21,026 nucleotides of DNA from Clostridia bacterium. GTDB taxonomy: Bacteria > Bacillota_A > Clostridia > Christensenellales > Aristaeellaceae. Shown in pieces: positions 1,876-20,553 of this stretch. Every line of letters starts with the position of its first letter. Position 1 is the first letter of the stretch. The DNA is taken from positions 1 through 21,026 of the forward strand of contig JAFQGN010000048.1 of assembly GCA_017398245.1 (NCBI GenBank), given 5' to 3'. The position numbers and the translations under genes are program-made. The notes beneath the pieces are model-generated. The model ran no database searches, was not told where the DNA came from, and worked only from the letters and a program-made list of their open reading frames with translations.

Positions 1876-2634
1876 TTAGTCGTCCAGATAGATGCGGCGG
1901 AATTCCTTCAGGGACTCGATCGGATCCATCAGCGGGCCGTATTCGATGCCGCAGGCGCCGGTGTAGCCGGCCTCGTCGACCTTCTTGAACACGAGCTTGT
2001 AATCGGTCTCGCCGGTCTGCAGCTCATGGCGGCCCGGATGGCCGGCGGCATGCAGGTGGGCGATGCAATCAAGGTTGTTCACGATATTGTTGATGATGTT
2101 GCCTTCCATGATCTGCTGATGATAGATATCATAGATGACCTTCACGTTGGGGGAGTTGACTTCGCGGATGATGTTGAAGCTCTCCAGAGAAGACCACAGA
2201 TAGCAATCCTTATGGTTGTACAGGGTGTTGAGAGGCTCGACCATCAGGGTGATGCCGTAATCTTCGCAGATGGGCTTGGCAGCGAGCAGGCCCATGATGA
2301 TGGAATCGTGCTGCTTGTTGCGGCACTCGCCGGTGTCCTTGCCGCCCTGGGTGATCAGGAACTTGGCGCCGACCTTCTTGGCGGCAGCGCAGCTTTCCTT
2401 CAGGCACTCAACAAAGTGCGCGCGGTTTTCCGGCACGGTGAGGCCGAAATCGGTGGTGCACATGCTCAGCAGTTCAACGCCGCTCTCTTCGCACGCAGCG
2501 CGGACAGCGTCGAGATCAAGGTTCTTCCAGTTGTAGGTTTCAGCGGCATCAAAGCCGAGCTTGCCGATCTGCCTGATCGCCTCGGGGAATTCCACATTTC
2601 TAAAGAAGCCGGGAACCGGAACGCAAATTCTCAT
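1876..2634 (-). CDS. hyi: Hydroxypyruvate isomerase-like TIM-barrel enzyme
   Basis: A 252-residue protein of the xylose-isomerase-like/AP-endonuclease-2 TIM-barrel superfamily, closest in pattern and length to hydroxypyruvate isomerase (about 258 residues), which interconverts hydroxypyruvate and tartronate semialdehyde. Likely metal-site and catalytic residues are Glu133 (MVEPLNT), Asp169/His172 (IYDIYHQQ), His195 (HLHAAGHPGRHE) and Glu231 (GIEYGP). Other sugar isomerases or epimerases share these motifs, so the substrate is uncertain. The ATG at 2632-2634 follows AAGGAGGAA; longer upstream reading is non-coding because a promoter sits there. Every lysine codon I read is AAG, unlike nadK, which suggests strong expression. 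The gene is divergent from the spoIIIA cluster. Confidence 0.82.
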   Translation of the reverse strand: MRICVPVPGFFRNVEFPEAIRQIGKLGFDAAETYNWKNLDLDAVRAACEESGVELLSMCTTDFGLTVPENRAHFVECLKESCAAAKKVGAKFLITQGGKDTGECRNKQHDSIIMGLLAAKPICEDYGITLMVEPLNTLYNHKDCYLWSSLESFNIIREVNSPNVKVIYDIYHQQIMEGNIINNIVNNLDCIAHLHAAGHPGRHELQTGETDYKLVFKKVDEAGYTGACGIEYGPLMDPIESLKEFRRIYLDD

Positions 2635-2757: not shown

Positions 2758-3042
2758 ACTACATATAACTGCGGCAGGCTTCTGCGGAAGCGGAGCTAAA
2801 GAGATGAATCCGGCTCCGCGCGCCGCGCGATTTTGACAAGGGACGTCGCCTCGATTCGAGCGGCAAAGAGCCTCGTTGCACAGGAAATCCTTCGTTTCAC
2901 GAAACAAACAGACGTACCTATATACATTTATATTTTACCAACACCGCCGAAAACATGCAATAGATTTCGACAATTTCTATAGGGGAAAAGGAGTATTTTT
3001 GTGCTGCCTGCGGCATAGGATGATGACACCGCTATGGATCGT
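2758..3042. other. Divergent intergenic region before spoIIIAC
   Basis: About 285 bp between the isomerase control region and spoIIIAC. It holds an inverted repeat GCGGAGC/GCTCCGC (2790-2796 and 2813-2819), a GC-rich palindrome (2817-2829), GTTTC-AC-GAAAC (2894-2905) and an AT-rich stretch (2915-2935). A five-codon frame (GTG at 3001, stop at 3016-3018) sits behind AAAAGGAG. I found no convincing sigma-E promoter for the spoIIIA genes and no trace of spoIIIAA or spoIIIAB coding sequence. Confidence 0.5.
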
Positions 3043-3057: not shown

Positions 3058-3255
3058 GTGCAGGCTGTCGTTCAGATCACGGCGATCGGGCTTGCGGCAT
3101 CGCTGGGCTCTCTGCTTTTGAAACGGGCGGGGCGCGAGGACATCGCGGCAGTCGTCGGGCTTGCGGGACTCCTGCTCACGCTGCTTGTTGTATTCAGCCT
3201 TATGCGGGAGTTTTTCGCAGGCGTTCAGTCTGTGCTGGGCGGGTTCTGGCAGTGA
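3058..3255 (+). CDS. spoIIIAC: Stage III sporulation protein AC
   Basis: A 65-residue protein with two membrane segments (roughly residues 3-18 and 30-50) joined by a short charged loop (KRAGREDIA), matching SpoIIIAC in length and pattern. In sporulating Bacillota it is a mother-cell membrane subunit of the SpoIIIA-SpoIIQ channel between mother cell and forespore. I chose the GTG at 3058 because GGAGGTGG (3043-3050) stands 7 nt upstream and the resulting length fits the family; the ATG at 3034 would place this sequence inside the protein. It is the first recognisable gene of the cluster: the usual upstream spoIIIAA and spoIIIAB are missing. SpoIIIAD follows after 12 nt. Confidence 0.82.
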   Translation: MQAVVQITAIGLAASLGSLLLKRAGREDIAAVVGLAGLLLTLLVVFSLMREFFAGVQSVLGGFWQ

Positions 3256-3267
3256 TGGGAGGGCCAT

Positions 3268-3660
3268 ATGAGCGGAGTCTTTCAGACAGTTCTGTTCGTT
3301 GTTGCGACTGCGCTTTTGTGCGTACTGCTACGCTCTGTAAAGCAGGAGTTTTCCGTTTTTGCGGGCATTGCGGGCTGCATCATCGTGCTGATCGCCGTGC
3401 TTCCGCAGCTTCGCCGCACGACAGAGGTGTTCGGCCGGATCTCATTCGACAGCGAGATCGGCGAGACGGCGAGGCAATGCATACAGGCGATGGCGATCGT
3501 TCTGCTGTGCGAATTTGCCGCTGCGATCTGCAAGGACGCAGGACAGAACGCGTTGGCTTTGCACGTATCCTTTTTCGGCCGGGCGACGATCTGCGCTCTT
3601 TGCGCTCCACTATTTGCCGGTCTGATCGATTCGCTCGGCTCGCTTTCGTCCTCCTTTTGA
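3268..3660 (+). CDS. spoIIIAD: Stage III sporulation protein AD
   Basis: A 130-residue integral membrane protein, close to the 133 residues of Bacillus SpoIIIAD. It has hydrophobic segments at about residues 4-20 and 27-46, then an amphipathic stretch and further hydrophobic segments through FAAAICKDAGQNALA and the C-terminus. The FAAAICKDAGQ-like sequence is characteristic of the family. It is predicted to be a membrane subunit of the SpoIIIA complex. The start ATG follows GGGAGGG with a 4-nt spacer. The end overlaps the proposed start of spoIIIAE, so translation of the two is probably coupled. Confidence 0.85.
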   Translation: MSGVFQTVLFVVATALLCVLLRSVKQEFSVFAGIAGCIIVLIAVLPQLRRTTEVFGRISFDSEIGETARQCIQAMAIVLLCEFAAAICKDAGQNALALHVSFFGRATICALCAPLFAGLIDSLGSLSSSF

Positions 3661-4712
3661 TCGCGCTTCCTTTTCCGGCCGAAGCGCAGAGCGAAACGGA
3701 GAGGCTGATCGACGCAATCAATCTTTCGGCGCTGCAGGAGCTGGCGGGGGATCTTTCCATAAAAGAAACGGCGATCGGGCTTCTGCGGGGCGAAACGGAC
3801 CTTGTAGATACTCTGATCGGCAGTTTCGATTTCAAAACCGTGATTTCGAACGCAGGAATGCGCGCGGGGCAGATCCTGATCCCGATCGGCCTGTGGGGGC
3901 TTTGTCCTGCGCTGCTTGGCGAACGAGGCGCGCATGCCGCAGGGAAATTCTGCGCATGCACGCTTGCTGCATCATTGGCGCAGATACTTTTTGCGCAATA
4001 TCGGTCTGCAATGTCTGCTGCAGAGCGGATCGCGCTGTTGTGCGAAGGGGCTGCGCCTGTGCTGACCACGCTGCTCAGCGCATCCGGCGCGGTGACTTCG
4101 TCCGCCCTGCTTACGCCTGCGGCCGGGATCGCGGCGCAGATCTGCACGGAGCTCATCGGCAGGTATATGATCCCCATCCTCGGCTGCTGCGGAGTCCTGG
4201 CCGTTTGTCCGGCATTTTCCGAGCGCTTTTCCTTTTCAGGGCTGCGAAAGCTGATGACGGGAGCCTGCACATGGCTGCAGGCCGGGGTTCTCGGGCTGTT
4301 TATGAGCGTGCTCCACATGCGCGGCATGCTTAAAACGGGGATGGACGGGCTTTCGATGCAGACGGCGAAATACACGATCGACAGCCTTCTGCCGGTCGTC
4401 GGCGGCGATGTAGCCGATTCGCTTGGGCTGCTGGTCGCCAGTGCGAAGGCCGTGCATGCCGGAGTAGGCGCGGTATGCTGCGCGCTGCTTTTGTCGTTCT
4501 GCATTGAGCCGGTCTGTGCGGCGGCAGCGGCCTTTCTGCTTGTACGCGTGTGTCGGGCGATTGTACAGCCGATCGGCGCGGGTGGGGCAATCGCTCTTTT
4601 GGACGGTTTTTCGGAGGTGCTTCAGGCGATGCTGGTTTCGATCGTATGCGCGGCGGTTCTGTTTGTGATGCTACTGGGCGCGTCGTTTCGCATGGCGGCG
4701 GCGCTGGGATGA
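3600..4712 (+). CDS. spoIIIAE: Stage III sporulation protein AE
   Basis: A polytopic membrane protein of about 370 residues (Bacillus SpoIIIAE has 399). Family features are the SASGAVTSSALLTPA segment, MDGLSMQTAKYTIDSLLPVVGG, and AIVQPIGAGGAIALLDGFSEVLQ near the C-terminus. It forms a large membrane part of the SpoIIIA complex. The N-terminus is predicted to be a signal peptide (hydrophobic core AFVLLLIALPFP, then AEAQ). No ATG or GTG lies in frame near it. I propose TTG at 3600, inside spoIIIAD, because it gives a normal basic n-region; TTG at 3657, which overlaps the spoIIIAD stop, is the alternative but truncates the signal. The frame stays open back to 3252, but that part is a shadow of spoIIIAD. 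Confidence 0.82.
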   Translation: MRSTICRSDRFARLAFVLLLIALPFPAEAQSETERLIDAINLSALQELAGDLSIKETAIGLLRGETDLVDTLIGSFDFKTVISNAGMRAGQILIPIGLWGLCPALLGERGAHAAGKFCACTLAASLAQILFAQYRSAMSAAERIALLCEGAAPVLTTLLSASGAVTSSALLTPAAGIAAQICTELIGRYMIPILGCCGVLAVCPAFSERFSFSGLRKLMTGACTWLQAGVLGLFMSVLHMRGMLKTGMDGLSMQTAKYTIDSLLPVVGGDVADSLGLLVASAKAVHAGVGAVCCALLLSFCIEPVCAAAAAFLLVRVCRAIVQPIGAGGAIALLDGFSEVLQAMLVSIVCAAVLFVMLLGASFRMAAALG

Positions 4713-4885
4713 AAAAGGTGTATGAGCTGTGCTTGCAGCTGGCTGCATTTTCGGCGATCGCCGGGGGGATGGAGATCCTTCTGCCGGAAGGAAAGCTGCG
4801 CAGCGCGGCGCTCACGCTGGCCGGTCTGCTTGCAGCAAAGCTGATCGCAGAAAGCACGCTATCCTGGATCGGCATGAACGGCTGA
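4709..4885 (+). CDS. spoIIIAF: Truncated SpoIIIAF-like membrane protein
   Basis: Only 58 residues, against about 200 in Bacillus SpoIIIAF. It retains the family's N-terminal membrane hairpin: one hydrophobic segment (about residues 8-25), the loop MEILLPEGKLRSA, where family members have a similar LLP turn, and a second hydrophobic segment (about 33-47). The cytosolic or intermembrane C-terminal domain is entirely absent. The ATG at 4709 overlaps the spoIIIAE stop (ATGA), so it is translationally coupled. spoIIIAG starts 17 nt after the stop, so no room remains for a frameshifted C-terminal domain. The call rests on position plus the LLP membrane-hairpin pattern. Confidence 0.72.
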   Translation: MKKVYELCLQLAAFSAIAGGMEILLPEGKLRSAALTLAGLLAAKLIAESTLSWIGMNG

Positions 4886-4901
4886 AATACGAGGTGCTTC
4901 G

Positions 4902-5279
4902 ATGCAGAAGATGAGATCTTTTCCGAAAATCAGTCCAGCGGTTCTGTATGCCGGGGTGTTTCTTTTACTGATTATGGGGTGTATGTCGGTATTCGGGCAG
5001 GATGAGAGCGGTACGAGCCTTGAGAGGCGGGTGGAGGAGGTTTTGAGCCGGATACAGGGGGCGGGCGAGGTGCGCGTGCTGATCAACAGCGGGCAGGAGC
5101 AGGCCCTTTCGGCATGGAGCATGATCGGCGTATCCGAACCGGAGAGGGAGATCACGGGCGTGCTGGTCGTTGCGCAAGGCGCGGCCGACCCGGCGGTCGC
5201 AGCGCGGCTTGCGCAGGCTGTAGGCACGGTGCTGCAGGTGGATCAATCGGCCATCTGCATCATGCTTATGGAAAAATGA
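4902..5279 (+). CDS. spoIIIAG: Short SpoIIIAG, ring-forming sporulation protein
   Basis: A 125-residue protein with one N-terminal membrane segment (about residues 12-31), then a ring-building-motif domain: LERRVEEVLSRIQGAGEVRVLINSG (40-64), ITGVLVVAQGAADPAVAARL (84-103) and a final helix and strand. The strand-turn GAGEVRV and the GVLVVAQGA motif are diagnostic of SpoIIIAG. Bacillus SpoIIIAG has 229 residues, largely because of a long beta-rich insertion between these two halves that builds the barrel of its 30-subunit ring. Here only about 20 residues join them, so this insertion is missing. The ATG at 4902 follows GAGGTG by 5 nt. Confidence 0.8.
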   Translation: MQKMRSFPKISPAVLYAGVFLLLIMGCMSVFGQDESGTSLERRVEEVLSRIQGAGEVRVLINSGQEQALSAWSMIGVSEPEREITGVLVVAQGAADPAVAARLAQAVGTVLQVDQSAICIMLMEK

Positions 5280-5311
5280 CGGTATCATTCGTCGAAAAGG
5301 CGGCATACTGA

Positions 5312-5318
5312 AAGGAGG
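5312..5318 (+). promoter_or_regulatory. Ribosome binding site that decides the spoIIIAH start
   Basis: The AAGGAGG at 5312-5318 ends one base before an in-frame ATG at 5320, too close for initiation there. A TTG at 5326 stands 7 nt away, the usual distance, so TTG is the likelier start. Confidence 0.6.
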
Positions 5319-5325
5319 GATGGCC

Positions 5326-5805
5326 TTGCCGGCGAGGTTAAGAAGGGCGCTCGGCGCAGGGCTGCTCGCCTTTTCCGTCGCTGCTTACGCCGGGGTATTG
5401 CCGGTATGGCGCATGGCAGAGCGGGAAACGCAAAGGCCGGCAGCGGCTTTTTCAGGCGTACAGATTTTGTCGGGTGACCAGGCGCGTACGGAAATGCTGG
5501 CCGTATTGGAGCGGACGCTGAACGACCCGCTGGCTTCAGAAAACAGTAAGGAAGAAGCGGCAGGACAGATGCAGGCGCTGCTTCGGACGATGGAGCAGGA
5601 AAATGCCATTGAAGAGGAACTGCGCCTTCGCGGGTACGGTCAAAGCATTGCAGGCGTGCACGCCGGGTTCGTTTCGGTGATCGTGCGCCGGGAACTGAGC
5701 GCGGAGGAAGCTGCGGCGATTTTTGAAACGGTTTGTCGCATAACCGGCTGCGAGATCGGGAATGTCCGTTTGATCCCATCGCAGGAAGATGCTGATATGA
5801 ATTAA
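5326..5805 (+). CDS. spoIIIAH: Stage III sporulation protein AH
   Basis: A 159-residue protein (Bacillus SpoIIIAH has 218) with an N-terminal membrane anchor (about residues 8-27), a linker and a C-terminal ring-building-motif domain. The latter shows the family pattern EEELRLRGYGQSIAGVHAGFVSVIVRRELSAEEAAAIFETVCRITG. In sporulating relatives this extracytoplasmic domain pairs with forespore SpoIIQ across the intermembrane space. The TTG at 5326 is chosen by ribosome-binding-site spacing; ATG at 5320 would add two residues. It closes the spoIIIA cluster. accB and accC, often found next in Clostridia, are not here; a 225-bp gap leads to the asp23 promoter. Confidence 0.83.
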   Translation: MPARLRRALGAGLLAFSVAAYAGVLPVWRMAERETQRPAAAFSGVQILSGDQARTEMLAVLERTLNDPLASENSKEEAAGQMQALLRTMEQENAIEEELRLRGYGQSIAGVHAGFVSVIVRRELSAEEAAAIFETVCRITGCEIGNVRLIPSQEDADMN

Positions 5806-6030
5806 CGACAGATGCGGTAGGCTTTGTTCACGACCGGTGTGGGAAGCGGTATGGATCGACTGATTTGAAATTGTAAAGGTGAGGAACGGAATTAAGCAAA
5901 AGTTACGCTATAAATCCTGCGCTTTGCCGGTCAATAGAAAGGGAATATCCCCTGATTGCGTCTTGTGAAGGAGATAATGGTGGTTCTGAAGCAGATTTAC
6001 CGTAAAATTTTGTCCATTTGCTTACATGAT

Positions 6031-6059
6031 TTGCCAAGACGGCGGATATCTGTTATAAT
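6031..6059 (+). promoter_or_regulatory. Sigma-A promoter of the asp23-amaP-DUF2273 unit
   Basis: TTGCCA (6031-6036), a 17-nt spacer and a perfect TATAAT (6054-6059) stand 12 nt before the AAGGAGG of asp23. The 225 bp upstream of it (5806-6030) contain no convincing gene or terminator. Confidence 0.88.
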
Positions 6060-6086
6060 ACAATAGCTATAAGGAGGCGAATACCT

Positions 6087-6701
6087 ATGAGTGATAATAT
6101 GCCCACGAACGTTCAGCTGGATGCGAACGCGAATGGTTCCGTTAGCTTCGCGACTGAAGTAGTCGCTACGATCGCCGGTCTTGCCGCTACGGAGATCGAA
6201 GGCGTTGCCAGCATGGCCGGCGCCAACAACGGCACGAGCCTGGCCGACATCCTCTCCCGCCGCATGGCCAACAATTCCAAGAACCTCACCAAGGGCGTGA
6301 AGGTGGAAGTGCAGGACGGCAAGGTCATTGTCGATGTGAATTTTATCGTCGAATACGGCTCTCCCGTGCCGGAGGTGGCCAAGAACATTCAGGAAAACGT
6401 CAAGAAGGCCATTGAGACCATGTCCGGTCTGACGGTCGAAACGGTCGACGTGCACGTGCAGGGCATCAGCTTTGAGCGCGAGAACAAGGCCGTGGCTGAG
6501 ATCGAACAGCAGCAGCGCCTGCTTCTGCAAAAGCAGCAGGAAGACGAGCGCGAACAGCGCGAAAAGAACGACCCGGTGGATCAGCTGCGCAAGGAAGAAC
6601 AGGCCGAACCTGTGCAGGCGGAAGAAGCCGCGCAGGAAGCTGCGGAAGAAACTGCAGAAGATGAGATCTCCGCCGGGGAAGAAGAAGGCGAGCAGGAATA
6701 A
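6087..6701 (+). CDS. Asp23/Gls24 family envelope stress protein
   Basis: A 204-residue soluble protein. Residues about 15-130 form the Asp23 domain: SVSFATEVVATIAGLAATEIEGVASMAG, GVKVEVQDGKVIVDVNFIVEYG, then VAKNIQENVKKAIETMSGLTVETVDVHVQGI. Family members coat the inner face of the membrane through AmaP, the next gene. From about residue 140 the protein turns into a Gln/Glu-rich helix and a long acidic Glu/Ala tail, absent from the classical protein of about 170 residues. AAGGAGG stands 9 nt before the ATG. Codon use is strongly biased (AAG for lysine, GAA for glutamate), as in abundant proteins. Confidence 0.9.
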   Translation: MSDNMPTNVQLDANANGSVSFATEVVATIAGLAATEIEGVASMAGANNGTSLADILSRRMANNSKNLTKGVKVEVQDGKVIVDVNFIVEYGSPVPEVAKNIQENVKKAIETMSGLTVETVDVHVQGISFERENKAVAEIEQQQRLLLQKQQEDEREQREKNDPVDQLRKEEQAEPVQAEEAAQEAAEETAEDEISAGEEEGEQE

Positions 6702-6738
6702 AACTGCTTCCGCCCAAACCGGAAAGGCGGTATAGAGT

Positions 6739-7608
6739 ATGAAGTTTCGTTTGCGAGACAGGATCGCGCTGGCGATCTATTCCCTTCTCGGCTTTGTTGC
6801 AGCGGCGCTTTTTGCAGGAGTAGGCTACCTTTTGTACACGGGTATGCTCCATGTTCAGCTCCCTTTGCTCGGCCGCGCGGGTTCCATGATCGCCGCGAAT
6901 GTATTGGCCGTGATCATGCTGGTCTACTCTGCGTTCATGCTGCGTCTGGCCTTTAAGCACAAGCCGAAGAAGGACAAAAACAGCGTTACCGTGGCTACTT
7001 CCGAGCAGGGCAACGGCGAAGTGCGCGTGAGCGTGCAGGCGCTGGACGCGCTGGTAAAGCAGGCCGTGGCCGGCAACAACGAGGGCGTGGCGGACATCAA
7101 GACGAGCATCGTCAACCACGACGATTCCATCTCCGTGAAGATCGACATGAGCCTGCACGGAGACGCGCACATTCCCAATATCACAATGCTTTTGCAGAGC
7201 TCCATCAAGAGCTATATCGAGGAGTTCTCCGGCATCGCTGTGCGCGATGTGTCCATCATGGTGAAGACCATCGTTCCCGTTCTGCCGCAGCTGGCGATCG
7301 AAGAAAAGAGCGCGCCGGTCGTTCTGGAAGAGAACGAACACCGCGAAATGCCCGCGCCGCAGCTGAGCGAGGCGCAGACCGAAAGCCCGGCTGAGGAAGC
7401 TTTCGCCAATGAAGAAGATGAGCTGAGCGAGACCGCGGTCGAAAGCGAAGCTGCCGAAGAAATCGAGCAGGGGGAGCCGACCGAAGAGACGACCGACGAG
7501 ATCGTCGGAGACGAAGAAGTGGTTCTCGAAGACGAGGTCGAAACCGAAGAGGCGGCTGAATTCGCCGAAGAAGCGGAAAAGAACGAAGAAGCACAGGAAG
7601 ACGCCTGA
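6739..7608 (+). CDS. amaP: AmaP-like membrane anchor for Asp23
   Basis: A 289-residue protein with two N-terminal membrane segments (about residues 9-33 and 46-70), a basic stretch KHKPKKDK, then an Asp23-like domain (about 83-175) with EVRVSVQALDALVKQAV, GVADIKTSIVNHDDSISVKIDMSL and YIEEFSGIAVRDVSIMV. AmaP anchors Asp23 oligomers to the membrane. From about residue 190 to the end is a low-complexity tail very rich in Glu and Asp, far longer than in typical AmaP (about 180-190 residues). It lies 37 nt after asp23 and 21 nt before the DUF2273 gene in one transcript. Confidence 0.87.
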   Translation: MKFRLRDRIALAIYSLLGFVAAALFAGVGYLLYTGMLHVQLPLLGRAGSMIAANVLAVIMLVYSAFMLRLAFKHKPKKDKNSVTVATSEQGNGEVRVSVQALDALVKQAVAGNNEGVADIKTSIVNHDDSISVKIDMSLHGDAHIPNITMLLQSSIKSYIEEFSGIAVRDVSIMVKTIVPVLPQLAIEEKSAPVVLEENEHREMPAPQLSEAQTESPAEEAFANEEDELSETAVESEAAEEIEQGEPTEETTDEIVGDEEVVLEDEVETEEAAEFAEEAEKNEEAQEDA

Positions 7609-8077: not shown

Positions 8078-8488
8078 TTGGATAGGACGCAAGCGCGTGC
8101 TGCGGCAATGCAGCTGGTTTACGAAAAGGAAATGGGCGGAGACGGCGGGATCGATACCCGAATCGGGCTCCTGGAGATCGCCGAAGAGGATAAAAACACG
8201 AAATATGTGGACGAGCTGGTCGAAGCGGTTGAAAAGAATCTGACGGCTATCGATGAGAAGATCTCCTCGTTCCTGCGAAGCGGATGGCGGCTTGAGCGCA
8301 TCACCCGTGTGGATCTGTGCATTCTGCGCGTGGGCGTGGCCGAAATGCTGTATTGCGGAACTCCGGCTGCTGTTGTGATCAACGAGGCGATCGAGCTTTC
8401 CAGGAAGTATTCCACGGAAGAGATCGGTTCGTTCATCAACGGCGTGCTGGGCTCTGTTGCCCGCAGCATGCAGGCGGAAAAGGCGTAA
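8078..8488 (+). CDS. nusB: Transcription antitermination factor NusB
   Basis: A 136-residue all-helical protein matching NusB from the start (RTQARAAAMQLVYEKEM) through YVDELVEAVEKNLTAIDEKISSFL and the conserved C-terminal part LERITRVDLCILRVGVAEML, PAAVVINEAIELSRKYSTEEIGSFINGVLGSVA. With NusE (ribosomal protein S10) it binds boxA RNA and supports rRNA antitermination. I chose TTG at 8078 because GGAGGG (8065-8070) lies 7 nt upstream and NusB proteins normally begin just before this R..AR motif; a GTG at 8048 would add ten non-conserved residues. It opens a long block of closely packed genes and is 2 nt from the next one. Confidence 0.93.
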   Translation: MDRTQARAAAMQLVYEKEMGGDGGIDTRIGLLEIAEEDKNTKYVDELVEAVEKNLTAIDEKISSFLRSGWRLERITRVDLCILRVGVAEMLYCGTPAAVVINEAIELSRKYSTEEIGSFINGVLGSVARSMQAEKA

Positions 8489-8490
8489 AT

Positions 8491-9441
8491 ATGGGCGTTC
8501 TCGGTATCGATACGAGCTGCTATACCACCTCTGTGGCGTATGCGCAGAGAGGAGCAGAGCCTGTTCAGGCGCGAAGGATTTTGACGGTTCCCGAAGGAAA
8601 AAGTGGACTGCAGCAGTCCGGCGCGCTGTTTCAGCATGTTCAGAATCTTCCGGTCATGCTGGAAGAGCTGCGCGCAAAGTGTCCGGAAATGCAGATAGAG
8701 GCCGTATGCGCGAGCACGCGGCCGCGTGATGCGCAGGACAGCTATATGCCCGTGTTTCTAGCGGGAGAAGGGACGGCAAGGGGGATCGCGGCCTCTTTGC
8801 AAGTCCCATTTTTTGCTACTTCGCACCAGCAGGGGCATGTGCGCGCCGCGATTTTGCACAGCGGCATCCCGGAGGGCGATTTCATGGCAGTGCACCTTTC
8901 CGGCGGCACGACCGAGCTTTTGCACACAGGGTTTGATCTGCATGTCGATCTGCTGGGCGGTACGGAGGATCTCAACGCAGGGCAGCTGGTGGACAGGACA
9001 GGCGTTGCGCTGGGCTTGCCGTTCCCTTGCGGTCCGCATCTGGAAGAGCTGGCAAAAGGCGGCAAAGCGGAATCGAAGATCCCGCTTTCGGCTAAAGGAA
9101 TGGCGCTGCATTTTTCCGGAGCGGAGGCGCAGATCATGCGCTGGGTGGAATCCGGCGAGATGAAAAAAGAGGACATTGCAGCGGAAGTGTATTCGTACCT
9201 GAGCCGCGCGGTTGCGCATCTTCTGACCGAAGGGTACAAGCATACTGGCTGCAAAAACGTGCTTATTGCGGGCGGAGTTTCTTCTTCGGCCCGTTTCCGC
9301 ACTCTTCTGCCCGAACGGCTCCGGCGCAAGAAATGCCCGGTGCGCGTGTACTGGGGCAAGCCGGAGTTTTCTTCCGACAACGCCGTAGGCGCGGCGCTGA
9401 TCGGTCTTGATTTGTTTGAAGGGAGCCGAGAAGCGAAATGA
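8491..9441 (+). CDS. TsaD/Kae1-like paralog of the ASKHA fold
   Basis: A 316-residue protein of the TsaD/Kae1 (old Gcp, peptidase M22) family: MGVLGIDTSCYTTSVA at the start, HQQGH (112-116) with metal-binding His112 and His116, HLSGGTTELL (135-144), GGTEDLNAGQLVDRTGVALGLPFPCGP (156-182), GGVSSS (261-266) and SSDNAVGAA with Asp296 as third metal ligand. Canonical TsaD makes the t6A modification of tRNA with TsaB and TsaE. This copy departs from TsaD at several phosphate-contact positions, including SGGT for SGGH and EDLNAGQ for the usual DDAAGE. Similar divergent paralogs sit beside nusB in Clostridia, so I read it as a paralog, not the t6A enzyme. It overlaps folD by 4 nt (ATGA). Confidence 0.8.
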   Translation: MGVLGIDTSCYTTSVAYAQRGAEPVQARRILTVPEGKSGLQQSGALFQHVQNLPVMLEELRAKCPEMQIEAVCASTRPRDAQDSYMPVFLAGEGTARGIAASLQVPFFATSHQQGHVRAAILHSGIPEGDFMAVHLSGGTTELLHTGFDLHVDLLGGTEDLNAGQLVDRTGVALGLPFPCGPHLEELAKGGKAESKIPLSAKGMALHFSGAEAQIMRWVESGEMKKEDIAAEVYSYLSRAVAHLLTEGYKHTGCKNVLIAGGVSSSARFRTLLPERLRRKKCPVRVYWGKPEFSSDNAVGAALIGLDLFEGSREAK

Positions 9442-14945: not shown

Positions 14946-15031
14946 TATATTAAGAAGCTGATTGGCACAACATCTTGAAGCAGAACGCGGTCTGTTTCCC
15001 AGTACTTGCGATGAGAGAGGCCGGATGGCCG

Positions 15032-15053
15032 ATGCAAAACGCATGCAAAGCGC
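15032..15053. repeat. Tandem 11-bp direct repeat upstream of nadK
   Basis: ATGCAAAACGC (15032-15042) is followed immediately by ATGCAAAGCGC (15043-15053), one mismatch. The 11-bp period equals about one helical turn, as at tandem protein-binding sites. It lies some 40 bp upstream of the proposed nadK promoter. Confidence 0.5.
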
Positions 15054-15089
15054 GGTATATGAAACTTGTATGAATTGTTCAAAGATCGC

Positions 15090-15118
15090 TTGTTTTCAAG
15101 CGTTAATTGTGATATATC
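15090..15118 (+). promoter_or_regulatory. Possible sigma-A promoter for nadK-argR-recN
   Basis: TTGTTT (15090-15095), a 17-nt spacer and TATATC (15113-15118) lie 23 nt before the nadK start. The -35 box overlaps a perfect hairpin CGCTTG-TTTT-CAAGCG (15087-15102). Both boxes deviate from consensus, but a promoter is needed after the dxs gap. Confidence 0.5.
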
Positions 15119-15141
15119 TTTATTAGAAGAAGGGGACATTC

Positions 15142-16505: not shown

Positions 16506-18212
16506 ATGCTCATTGAACTATCTATCCGAAATATAGCGCTGATCGAATCGCTGCGCATTCCTTTTGGCCCGGGCCTGAACATCCTTACCGGTGAAACAGG
16601 CGCGGGCAAAAGTATCGTTGTGGATTCTGTCTGCCTTGCGCTTGGCGGCCGGGCCGACAGAGACCTGATCCGTTCCGGCACGGAAAGCGCGAGCGTGCAG
16701 GCTGTGTTCGATATTTCCGACAACCCGCAGGTGCGCTCTCTGCTTGCGGAGTACGGGATCGACCCGGGCGACAATGTGATCACCGTGGGCAGAGAGCTTT
16801 CTGCAAACGGGCGGAATATTTGCCGAATTTGCGGTGCTGCTGCAACGCTCACACAGCTGCGCTCGCTCACGTCGCTTCTGATGGACATGCACGGGCAGCA
16901 TGAGCACGCTCGACTGCTCGACCCGGCTGCGCACCTGAGTTTTCTGGACGAATGCGGAGACGATGAGCACCATCGTCTGATCGCAGAGGTGCGCGAGGCG
17001 TATGCCGCGTACGCGCAGGCCGAAAAGGAGCTGCGCAGCGCGAACGCGGATATTTCCGAGCGGGAACGCCTTGCCGACATGCTCCGGTTTCAGATCGCCG
17101 AGATCGATGAAGTACGCCCGAAGGCGGGGGAATACGAAAAGCTGGAAGCGAAGGCGAAGCTGTATGAGCATGCAGAGCTGATCGCCGACAAGGTGGAGAT
17201 CGCCTACACGCAGGCGTATGCCGGCGCAGGGCGCAGCGCAGGCGCACAGGAAGCGCTGAAGAAAGCCATGAACGCGATGAGCGCCATCGCTGAGTTCGAC
17301 CCGCGCTTTTCGCTGCTGCACGAGCGGCTGGAAGAGAGCTATTATATGGTGCAGGATATCGGCCTGGAGCTGCAGGATATCCGCGACGGACTGGATTACG
17401 ACCCGGGAAAGCTGGGCAGGATCGAAGACCGGCTGGATGCTCTGAAGCGCCTGATGCGAAAGTACGGGCCGGAGGTTGCCGATGTACTTGCGTTCCGAGC
17501 GGACGCCGCTGCGCGTTTGGATTCGCTCGACAACGCCGATGAGCGACGCGAAGAATTGGAAAAGGCGCTGAAAAAAGCGGATGCAAAGTACTCAAACCTG
17601 TGTGCAAAGCTGACGGAAAGTCGTCAGCGCATCGCCGATTTTTTCTGCACGGCAGTGCGCAGCGAGCTGACCGAACTTGGCATGCCGAAGATCCGTTTCG
17701 AAGCGCGCTTTGCGCCGCGCACGAAGATGCATTCTCCGACGGGTTCCGATGTGGTCGAGCTCGTTATTTCCCCTAATCCCGGCGAGCCGCTCAAGCCGAT
17801 GGCTTCTATCGCCTCCGGCGGCGAGCTGGCGCGCATCATGCTCGCGTTCAAGACTGTGCAGAACCAGCAGGGCGGAGCGGGCACGATGGTGTTTGACGAG
17901 ATCGACACCGGTGTGAGCGGGCGGATGGCGCAGGCTGTGGGCGAGAAAATGGCCCGGATCGGCTTCGGCAAGCAGGTCATATGCGTTACGCATCTTCCGC
18001 AGATCGCAGCGATCGGCGACAGGCAGTATTTGGTAGAGAAAAACGAGGAGAACGGGCGCACGGAGACGAATGTTCGCTTGCTGGATGACGAAGGACGCGC
18101 CCTTGAGCTTTCGCGCCTCGTTGGCGGAGCGGAGGACGAAGGCAGCGCGCTGGAGCATGCGAGAAGTATGCTGCGGCAGGCGGAAAAGAGAAAGACAGAA
18201 ATGCGCATCTAA
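16506..18212 (+). CDS. recN: DNA repair protein RecN
   Basis: A 568-residue SMC-like ATPase of double-strand-break repair. It has Walker A GETGAGKS (29-36), the N-terminal RecN block GGRADRDLIRSGTESASVQAVFDI, MDMHGQHEHARLLDP (about 124-138), a central coiled coil (about 155-370), the signature SIASGGELARIMLA (about 434-447), and Walker B GTMVFDEIDTGVSG (about 459-472) followed by QVICVTHLPQIAA. Length and order are normal. It starts 23 nt after argR behind AAAGGAGAAG. A strong terminator follows, so spoIVB and spo0A, its usual Clostridia neighbours, are not here. Confidence 0.96.
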   Translation: MLIELSIRNIALIESLRIPFGPGLNILTGETGAGKSIVVDSVCLALGGRADRDLIRSGTESASVQAVFDISDNPQVRSLLAEYGIDPGDNVITVGRELSANGRNICRICGAAATLTQLRSLTSLLMDMHGQHEHARLLDPAAHLSFLDECGDDEHHRLIAEVREAYAAYAQAEKELRSANADISERERLADMLRFQIAEIDEVRPKAGEYEKLEAKAKLYEHAELIADKVEIAYTQAYAGAGRSAGAQEALKKAMNAMSAIAEFDPRFSLLHERLEESYYMVQDIGLELQDIRDGLDYDPGKLGRIEDRLDALKRLMRKYGPEVADVLAFRADAAARLDSLDNADERREELEKALKKADAKYSNLCAKLTESRQRIADFFCTAVRSELTELGMPKIRFEARFAPRTKMHSPTGSDVVELVISPNPGEPLKPMASIASGGELARIMLAFKTVQNQQGGAGTMVFDEIDTGVSGRMAQAVGEKMARIGFGKQVICVTHLPQIAAIGDRQYLVEKNEENGRTETNVRLLDDEGRALELSRLVGGAEDEGSALEHARSMLRQAEKRKTEMRI

Positions 18213-18222
18213 AATGTATTGT

Positions 18223-18259
18223 AGAAGCCTTCCGGTTTGTCCGGCGGGCTTCTTTTTTT
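18223..18259 (+). terminator. Intrinsic terminator after recN
   Basis: A stem AGAAGCC/GGCTTCT (18223-18229 and 18247-18253) with an inner CCGG/CCGG pairing is followed by seven T residues (18253-18259). It ends the nadK-argR-recN transcript. Confidence 0.92.
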
Positions 18260-18314
18260 ACATATTCTCCGGCAAAACGAACCATACTTCCTGTGATAAA
18301 AGGGAGGGATGGAA

Positions 18315-20024
18315 GTGTTTTTTGCCGTGGTCACCCTCATTCAGCTTTGTGTCACGCTGATCATGGGCGCGTATTTTTTCAAACAGCTCAAAACTACGCA
18401 GGAGGCACAGGCTCCGCAGAAGGGTTCGTATTCCCGGAGCGAGCAGGAGCGGCTTATCAAACTGCGCTCGATCCGCCTGAGCGAGCCGCTGGCGGAGAAG
18501 GCAAGGCCGGAGAATCTTTCGGACATTATTGGACAGGCGGAAGGGATACGGGCTTTGCGGGCAATCCTTTGCGGCGCACATCCGCAGCATGTGATCATAT
18601 ACGGGCCGCCGGGCGTCGGCAAGACATGCGCAGCCCGCCTTATGCTGGAAGAGGCAAAGCGTTCTGAGGGGACGCCGTTTTGCGAGAAGGCACCGTTTAT
18701 CGAGGTGGACGCGACCTGCGTGCGATTCGACGAACGATCCATCGCCGATCCGCTCATCGGCAGCGTGCACGATCCGATCTATCAGGGCGCAGGGCCTTTG
18801 GGCATGAACGGAATCCCGCAGCCGCGCGAGGGCGCAGTCACACGCGCGCACGGCGGCGTGCTCTTTCTCGATGAGATCGGCGAGATGCAGCCCATTCAGA
18901 TGAACAAGCTGCTCAAGGTGCTGGAGGACAGAAAGGTGCGCTTTGAAAGCGCATATTACGACCCGGACGACCGAAAGACGCCGGCGTACATACACGATAT
19001 ATTCAAAAACGGCCTTCCGGCGGATTTCCGGCTCGTCGCGGCCACGACGCGTTCTCCGGAGGATATTCCTCCGGCGCTGCGTTCCAGATGCATGGAGGTA
19101 TACTTTCGTGCGTTGGAGCCGGAAGAATTGGCAGACATTGCTGAAGGAGCAGCGCAGCGGCTCGGCTGCAGCATGGAGCGCGAATGCGCTGTGCTGATCG
19201 GTTCTGCGGCAAGCTGCGGGCGAGACGCGGTAAATATCGTGCAGATGGCGGCAAGCTCTATTGAAGCGGAAGGCAGAAGCGTTATTGGGCGAAAGGATAT
19301 TGAATGGGTGATGGAGTGCTGCGGTTTTGCACCCCGCAGCAAGCAGGGGCTACCGGACAAAACGCGATGCGGGCGGGTAAACGGCCTTGCGGTGTACGGG
19401 ACGCAGCAGGGGGCGGTATTGCGGATCGACGCATCTGTTGCGCCGGGCAGCGGCAGGATACACCTGACGGGCGCAGTGGATCAAGAGGAGATCGGTTCCG
19501 GGCGCGGACGAACGATCCGCCGAAGCGGCATGGCAAAGGATGCAGCGGAGAAAGCTGCGTTCATCCTGCGCAGCAGGGGAATTCTGAATGATCGTATAGA
19601 CGTGCATATCGATTTCCCGGGTGGGATCCCGGTAGACGGGCCTTCGGCAGGTCTTGCGATGTGCATTGCGGCGTATTCGGCGATCTATGGCGTGCCGGTG
19701 CGAAACGAGATTGCGATGACGGGCGAGATCAGCATGCAGGGGGATGTTCTGCCGGTCGGCGGAGTGAGCCGAAAGATCGACGCGGCGGAACGGATCGGCT
19801 GCAGCGAGGTTTTGATCCCGCACGAAAACTGGCAGGAGGCATATGCGCAGCGAAAGGTGAAGGTCACAGCGGTGCGTTCCATAGAAGAAGCGATGCGTGC
19901 GGCGTTTTCAACGGAAGATCATGCAGCTGCGCATTCTGCAACGCCCGAAATTAGCGCTGAACGATTGGCTGCGCAGGGCTCGGCAGAGGGTTTGACCAGC
20001 GCAGAAGCAAGAAAACAGGGCTGA
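18315..20024 (+). CDS. lonB: Membrane-anchored Lon-type protease LonB
   Basis: A 569-residue LonB. An N-terminal membrane segment (about residues 2-22) replaces the substrate domain of LonA. The AAA+ module follows: Walker A GPPGVGKT (97-104), Walker [13 protein letters not shown] (about 180-191), and [14 protein letters not shown] with sensor/arginine-finger residues. The C-terminal protease domain has catalytic Ser444 ([13 protein letters not shown]) and Lys487 ([14 protein letters not shown]), 43 apart as in other Lon proteases. In Bacillus lonB is forespore-expressed; in Clostridia it is widespread. Start: the ATG at 18309 abuts the GGGAGGG, so GTG at 18315, 7 nt from GGAGG, is preferred. 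The last 35 residues or so are a low-complexity Ala/Ser/Glu tail. Confidence 0.93.
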
Positions 20025-20081
20025 AGAGCGGAAAATTATGCTGATTTCCTGTAAAAAGAGCGATTGAAGAGCAGAAAACGA

Positions 20082-20110
20082 TTGCAAAGTGGGGCGGGTT
20101 ATGGTATACT
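20082..20110 (+). promoter_or_regulatory. Sigma-A promoter of secG
   Basis: TTGCAA (20082-20087), a 17-nt spacer and TATACT (20105-20110) precede secG by 41 nt. There is no terminator between lonB and this promoter. Confidence 0.87.
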
Positions 20111-20125
20111 AAACAAGCTGTTTAG
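20109..20125. promoter_or_regulatory. Palindromic operator-like site at the secG start
   Basis: A perfect palindrome CTAAACA-AGC-TGTTTAG begins at the last two bases of the -10 box and covers the expected transcription start. This is the place and symmetry of a repressor operator, for instance of a TetR-type regulator. The regulator is unknown; the palindrome could instead form a hairpin at the mRNA 5' end. Confidence 0.6.
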
Positions 20126-20151
20126 TTGGAATTACAGGAGGGTTTTATTTC

Positions 20152-20553
20152 ATGAATGCCGTACTTATTCTTGTCAATATTCTGCTCGCTCTGGTCGCGA
20201 TCGTTCTGATCGTCTCCGTTCTTGCGCAGGAAGGCACCCGTCAGGGCCTCGGCGCTATCACCGGCGGCGCGGAAACCTTCTTTGGTAAGAACAAGGCCAA
20301 GAGCATTGAAGGCAAGCTGGAACTGATCACCAAGATCGGCGCGACTGTCTTTATCGTTCTCGCTATCGTTTCTACTCTGCTCACCTCTTCCATCAATAAG
20401 AACAACACCATCGTTGTTGACGACGCCGCTGTTGTGGAAGATCATGTCCATACCGAAGGCGAAGAGCACGTACACGAGGAAGAAACCACCGGCAAAGAGA
20501 CCGAGGCTACCGAATCTGAGGAAACTGCCGAGACCGAGTCTACGGAAGGCTAA
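20152..20553 (+). CDS. secG: Preprotein translocase subunit SecG with long acidic tail
   Basis: A 133-residue protein whose first 80 residues are a normal SecG: membrane segment 1 (about 3-25), the conserved loop QEGTRQGLGAITGGAETFFGKNKAKSIEGKL, and membrane segment 2 (about 62-80). SecG assists SecYE in protein export. The remaining 50 residues or so are an unusual acidic tail with two HVH motifs (HVHTEGEEHVHEEE) and a Thr/Glu-rich end; ordinary SecG stops near 75 residues. If topology follows E. coli SecG, the tail lies outside the membrane. GGAGGG precedes the ATG at 9 nt. All lysine codons are AAG, which suggests high expression. The next gene is rnr, a common order. Confidence 0.92.
   Translation: MNAVLILVNILLALVAIVLIVSVLAQEGTRQGLGAITGGAETFFGKNKAKSIEGKLELITKIGATVFIVLAIVSTLLTSSINKNNTIVVDDAAVVEDHVHTEGEEHVHEEETTGKETEATESEETAETESTEG

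Follow-up and report, generated by a model that had tools for sequence, protein, structure and literature searches.

A spoIIIAC-AH operon without spoIIIAA and spoIIIAB at its locus in a Clostridia bacterium

The SpoIIIA-SpoIIQ complex (A-Q complex, or feeding tube) is known from Bacillus subtilis and Clostridioides difficile, and among its components SpoIIIAA is a secretion-type ATPase and SpoIIIAB a GspF-like platform protein. The present study deals with a spoIIIA operon that begins at spoIIIAC, on contig JAFQGN010000048.1 of a Clostridia bacterium; this contig, 21,026 bases long and analysed as a whole, is called the window here, and the genes and their products are abbreviated as AA to AH. 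It has been reported that AA and AB are required in B. subtilis (PMC2703783, PMC12720343). Both Walker motifs of SpoIIIAA are reported to be required in this organism, and in C. difficile a Walker A mutation carries a cost of about 300-fold and a Walker B mutation of about 3-fold (PMC4605598). A preliminary description of the window took it as given that the eight genes form one operon in sporulating Bacillota. This premise was overstated, as AA and AB are reported absent from the spore-forming Sporosarcina clade, from other Planococcaceae and from some Lysinibacillus, often together with AD or AF (PMC7924749), and spore-forming Erysipelotrichia are reported to be without any spoIIIA genes (PMC3749518). 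Lysinibacillus sphaericus is given without AA and AB in PMC3533761, a source which judged that genome unreliable and which otherwise lists all eight genes in all spore formers.

The operon of the window resembles the A-Q complex known from B. subtilis and C. difficile in having the AC, AD, AE, AG and AH families in the same order, but it is without AA and AB, its AF is a membrane stub and its AG is without most of the insertion. As had been described before, AC to AH are six intact, tightly coupled open frames (3058-5805, plus strand throughout) in the order AC-AD-AE-AF-AG-AH, with overlaps at AD/AE and AE/AF. spoIIIAC (3058..3255) encodes 65 amino acids (aa) and matches PF06686 at 39.3 bits, above the curated Pfam cut-off, and TIGR02848 at 42 bits, under the cut-off; its likeliest start is the GTG at 3058 with a good ribosome-binding site, GGAGGTGG, ahead of it, and the frame is open already from an ATG at 3034. 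spoIIIAD (3268..3660) matches PF06686 at 67.9 bits and spoIIIAE (3657..4712), whose start overlaps the AD stop, matches PF09546 at 125 bits, both above the cut-off. The AC-AD-AE membrane core of the complex is thus present by Pfam, although all three proteins fall below the NCBIfam equivalog cut-offs. An AlphaFold2 model of AE is all-helical, with a predicted local distance difference test score (pLDDT) of 79.8, and found no match among the solved structures of the PDB at E <= 0.001.

The ring-building proteins AG and AH are present as well, AG weakly. spoIIIAG (4902..5279) is a short form of 125 aa, which retains the ring-building domain and lacks most of the insertion present in B. subtilis; it has no Pfam match and reaches 44.5 bits against TIGR02830, where the cut-off is 147.7. 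The single AG sequence matches B. subtilis SpoIIIAG (5wc3) at E 0.045 and an AG profile does so at 3.3e-07, most strongly in the second half of SpoIIIAG, while a low-depth model (pLDDT 70) shows a weak likeness to the ring domains of PrgK, FliF and SpoIIIAG (best E 2.5e-03). spoIIIAH (5320..5805) matches PF12685 at 62.5 bits, above the cut-off; AH alone found no match in the PDB, and its profile matches the SpoIIIAH structures 3tuf and 3uz0 at 1.5e-15 and 2.2e-15. The AF of B. subtilis has a membrane part plus a soluble domain. The stub in the window (4709..4885), whose start overlaps the AE stop, has 58 aa and the membrane part only; it gave no Pfam match and no convincing match to a hidden Markov model (HMM) of Pfam or NCBIfam, and it was named by its position and by its likeness to open reading frames (ORFs) of 54-60 aa that relatives have in this position; of the nine examined relatives that keep AA, six have one. 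Core and ring parts are retained, and the cytosolic motor and the platform are missing.

The place that AA and AB occupy in relatives is taken by a hydroxypyruvate-isomerase-like TIM-barrel gene (1876..2634, minus strand; PF01261 126 bits; TIGR03234 120 bits, below the cut-off), which is divergent from AC. Its start at 2634 is separated from AC by 423 bases, in which neither AA nor AB has left a trace. HMMs were made from 14 SpoIIIAA and 11 SpoIIIAB sequences of relatives and were run, with filters off, against all six frames (stretches of at least 15 aa) of the window and of four loci. The best AA score in the whole 21-kb window, 11.2 bits, falls within the AF region, and the best AB score is 4.7 bits; the same HMMs score 334-340 bits (AA) and 198-216 bits (AB) in two loci carrying the genes. 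The absence of both genes from the locus, which the preliminary description had claimed, was thus borne out. That description had also raised an assembly break just before 3058 or a copy of the pair elsewhere in the genome. No contig end lies near 3058, as the window is an entire contig, and no such copy was found by the genome search, which was made in an incomplete relative.

Relatives were sought around the order and family of genome G008, titled Candidatus Pullichristensenella, and are titled Clostridia. The closest genome found, G456, has a RecN 71% identical to that of the window (best among 308 genomes searched) and the best AE among 300 genomes, about 41-42% identical. On its contig L058 an isomerase gene lies divergent from AC, which is followed by AD and AE. 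This is the same isomerase-AC junction as in the window, and the isomerase, in the same place, is 82% identical. The contig contains neither AA nor AB. Genome-wide searches were made in G456, the window itself being one unplaced contig, and the profiles of the relatives' AA and AB found neither gene in the whole of this incomplete assembly. Hence neither the secretion-type ATPase nor the platform of the SpoIIIA complex was found in the window or in the G456 assembly. The sole AA-like match in G456 (23 bits, an ORF of 517 aa) was considered as a substitute ATPase and rejected, as we take this ORF to be Rho, a name given by reading and not by database search.

The pair is common among the relatives. 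A profile of AA built from relatives gave strong matches in 16 of the 20 genomes searched (E <= 1.3e-81), or 16 of 19 excluding G456; none was strong in G456, G425, G468 and G434. In G434, AB is cut off at the contig start. The AB profile matched in 9 of 12 genomes and found nothing in G456, G425 and G468. Since G425 and G468 gave no match to Spo0A_C, SpoIVA or small acid-soluble spore proteins (SASPs), these two appear either not to sporulate or to be very incomplete; G468 also has no AE at E <= 1e-24, the sole cut-off applied there. A survey of the order, made on a draw of 396 genomes from a larger group and with AE and AA searches that differ in query and cut-off, found AE in 323 (E <= 1e-10) and AA in 338 (E <= 1e-15). 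Four of the 396 have AE without AA. In one of them, G067, the contig ends right beside AE; the other three (G112, G178, G375) may reflect breaks between contigs or additional losses. In a tree built for 15 genomes on the concatenation of six housekeeping proteins, the window and G456 form a clade (support 1.000), which is sister to the AA-bearing G449 (0.956) and stands among AA-bearing genomes. Being nested in this way, the loss of AA-AB is most likely derived.

On balance we lean towards a derived SpoIIIA operon, used in sporulation without an ATPase and platform pair of its own, the pair having been lost in the ancestor of the clade. The minimal complex, one of the options given in the preliminary description, is the best reading of the locus. 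In the clade's ancestor a rearrangement probably brought the sugar-isomerase gene in ahead of spoIIIAC, with the removal of spoIIIAA and spoIIIAB. AC-AH would still be expressed, a sigma-E-type promoter shortly upstream being the probable source. The AC-AD-AE membrane core and the AG and AH rings would still connect the mother cell with the forespore, forming the mother-cell part of the feeding tube. Such a complex would then act as a scaffold or passive conduit, or would borrow energy elsewhere, instead of using its own ATPase. A candidate for the promoter is a block conserved with G456 (2930..2967, plus strand), which consists of ATATTTTA (2930-2937), 16 bases and CATGCAATAG (2954-2963). It is the best local match between the intergenic regions of the window and G456, which are otherwise dissimilar, and a score as high came up in 4 of 2000 resamples of a first-order Markov model, or in 6 of 2000 once the ends were trimmed. 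Within it CATGCAAT resembles the consensus of the sigma-E -10 element, the spacing being unusual. The block may be a sigma-E-type promoter of AC-AH; it could instead serve the divergent gene. A search for a sigma-E-like -10 element ahead of AA in 22 AA-bearing loci gave no calibration of such a site, as repeated matches fell only at the AA start codon.

The preliminary description had proposed a genome search for sporulation genes. In G456 Spo0A, SigF and SigE were found, whereas SpoIIIAA, SpoIIIAB, SigG and SigK were not. There are three Spo0A_C matches above the cut-off, as likewise in five AA- or AB-bearing relatives, and the genome carries SpoIIAA-SpoIIAB-SigF and SpoIIGA-SigE, with SpoIIAB above its NCBIfam cut-off and SigE above one of two. 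It also has two strong SASPs; as a control, the AA-bearing G439 shows only a sub-threshold SASP match. AC, AD and AE are free of stops between the window and G456 (AD in the aligned part) at 49, 36 and about 41-42% aa identity. Since they are intact at 36-49% protein identity, AC-AE are probably still used. The ratio of nonsynonymous to synonymous substitution rates (dN/dS), a check that had also been proposed, is about 0.19 for AC, 0.38 for AD and 0.45 for AE, with dS near saturation.

Several points weigh against the reading of a derived operon in use. B. subtilis strains from which AA or AB has been deleted are reported to sporulate at only 0.001-0.003% (PMC12720343). The spore formation of the clade is a prediction, and SpoIIAA, SigF and SpoIIGA of G456 score below their NCBIfam cut-offs. 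The window is represented by a single contig, so that the genome-wide status of AA and AB comes from G456, whose contig ends within AE, so that the comparison of spoIIIA genes with it covers AC-AE. The G456 assembly is judged incomplete because SigA was not found in it either, along with SpoIVA, SigG and SigK, and because the sigE contig stops directly behind sigE; AA and AB could therefore lie in its gaps. AE evolves fast, the ratio of its proportion of nonsynonymous differences (pN) to that of housekeeping genes being 1.81 between window and G456. As a mark of lost function this ratio is unsupported, as pairs of AA-bearing genomes give 1.12-2.02 and the value lies within that range, though near its top.

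It could also be that the clade is losing sporulation or is already without it, AA-AB having gone first and AC-AH being on the way out. We hold this to be unlikely, though it is the alternative that survives best. The missing SpoIVA, SigG and SigK speak for it, as does the weaker constraint on AE and AD compared with five neighbours (isomerase, RecN, FolD, IspA and ArgR), for which dN/dS between window and G456 is 0.04-0.18. G425, the only other genome of its genus among those analysed, has no match to AE (E <= 1e-5), Spo0A_C or SASPs. AB, together with AF, is reported missing in asporogenous Clostridia such as Eubacterium rectale, Ruminococcus albus and some Caldicellulosiruptor (PMC3533761), which also counts against the preferred reading. 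However, the six frames of the window are intact, and AC, AD and AE have stayed free of stops in G456 after a long divergence. Apart from the window's own record, six relatives of AE were found with 47-57% identity, of which one is a piece of 218 aa, and the base composition of the spoIIIA genes at the three codon positions, GC included, is like that of the neighbouring housekeeping genes. G456 has kept Spo0A, SigF, SigE and SASPs, and with SigA missing too its gaps are at least partly gaps of the assembly.

A less probable alternative, to which we give little credit, is that spoIIIAA-AB moved and act in trans. The preliminary description had mentioned rearrangement, and this part of it stands in so far as the isomerase junction, which is common to two genomes and stands in the place of AA-AB, points to one; a moved copy was not found in the G456 assembly. 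The incompleteness of that assembly and the single contig of the window leave room for relocation, but the relatives' AA and AB profiles found nothing there. Distances between AA and AE were counted in 87 better-scoring genomes among the matches listed. In 82 of these 87 the two genes share a contig and are at most 3042 bases apart, and in the other five they are found no farther than about 1.5 kb from contig ends, the pattern that breaks would produce. Thus relocation of AA is not the rule in this order, and no clear moved AA was seen among these 87 genomes.

That AC-AH have been repurposed for an envelope complex outside sporulation, as had also been suggested, is very improbable. The missing ATPase would fit such a role, and behind recN the window has lonB and secG (16506-20553) instead of spoIVB-spo0A, an arrangement which is the same in G456 (contig L080). 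But no spoIVB- or spo0A-like frame was seen by eye directly after recN in the AA-bearing G439 and G479 either, and repurposing found no positive support in G456, which keeps its early sporulation regulators (Spo0A, SpoIIAA-AB-SigF, SpoIIGA-SigE) and SASPs. The absence of the pair ahead of AC is not an assembly artefact, a possibility that one unplaced contig would invite and that can be dismissed because the independent genome G456 has the same isomerase-AC junction.

The short AG and the stub AF were considered as marks of the loss of AA-AB and were rejected as such, because AG without the long insertion and ORFs of AF size occur in AA-bearing relatives. The spoIIIA operons of G449, G439, G001 and G008 have AA and AB directly upstream of AC, unlike the window. 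As in the window, the long AG insertion is absent from all four, these being the relatives in which AG was aligned, and G001 has an AF-size ORF of 56 aa.

The genes downstream of spoIIIA are the same in the lineages of G449, G439, G001 and G008, and the position of spoIIIA ahead of asp23-nusB-folD-xseAB-ispA-dxs matches the order in B. subtilis and Clostridia. A TsaD-like gene (PF00814) stands between nusB and folD at 8488-9441, as in several relatives. Between dxs and nadK (14946-15141) the space is too short for a gene, and in G456 it is about as narrow; in one relative an ORF at this place (L087, 16203-17027) reads like tlyA, a name given by reading. The frame after secG in the window and in G456 is presumably rnr. 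Upstream of the isomerase gene the window and G456 differ. The PF00882-like and DUF3842 genes of the window are unmatched in L058, where two tandem similar proteins with signal-like starts are found (4650-7162). The product of the former of the window's two genes (702-1343) shows a weak likeness to zinc-dependent phospholipase C (19 bits against PF00882, under the cut-off). An Rfam scan of the window gave tRNA only.

Among the closest parallels to the present locus are the AA/AB-less sets of the Sporosarcina clade, other Planococcaceae and some Lysinibacillus, reported spore formers in which AA and AB are likewise missing (PMC7924749, PMC3533761). Those sets belong to Bacilli and are by profile also without AF and partly without AD, whereas the window keeps AD and its relatives are Clostridia. 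Erysipelotrichia have no SpoIIIAA ATPase either, but there the whole of spoIIIA is reported absent (PMC3749518), while here AC-AH are kept. In the openly licensed literature searched no report was found of AC-AH kept without AA-AB in a spore former of the Clostridia. As some spore formers have already been reported without AA-AB, this is an unusual variant of SpoIIIA and not a new kind of system; apparently the pair was lost once more, independently and in another class, while AD was retained. Such a loss from an otherwise intact SpoIIIA locus is uncommon. More tentatively, and with somewhat less than even confidence, we propose that a lineage of Clostridia sporulates with a SpoIIIA complex free of ATPase and platform, its core and rings sufficing as a passive conduit or as an engulfment zipper, and that it arrived at this state separately from the Planococcaceae. 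It is debated whether the SpoIIIA channel is driven by ATP as an exporter or serves as a scaffold or passive conduit. Lineages with the channel but without the motor separate these two functions by evolution and, if the present reading is true, they would be a natural experiment on active secretion through the feeding tube.

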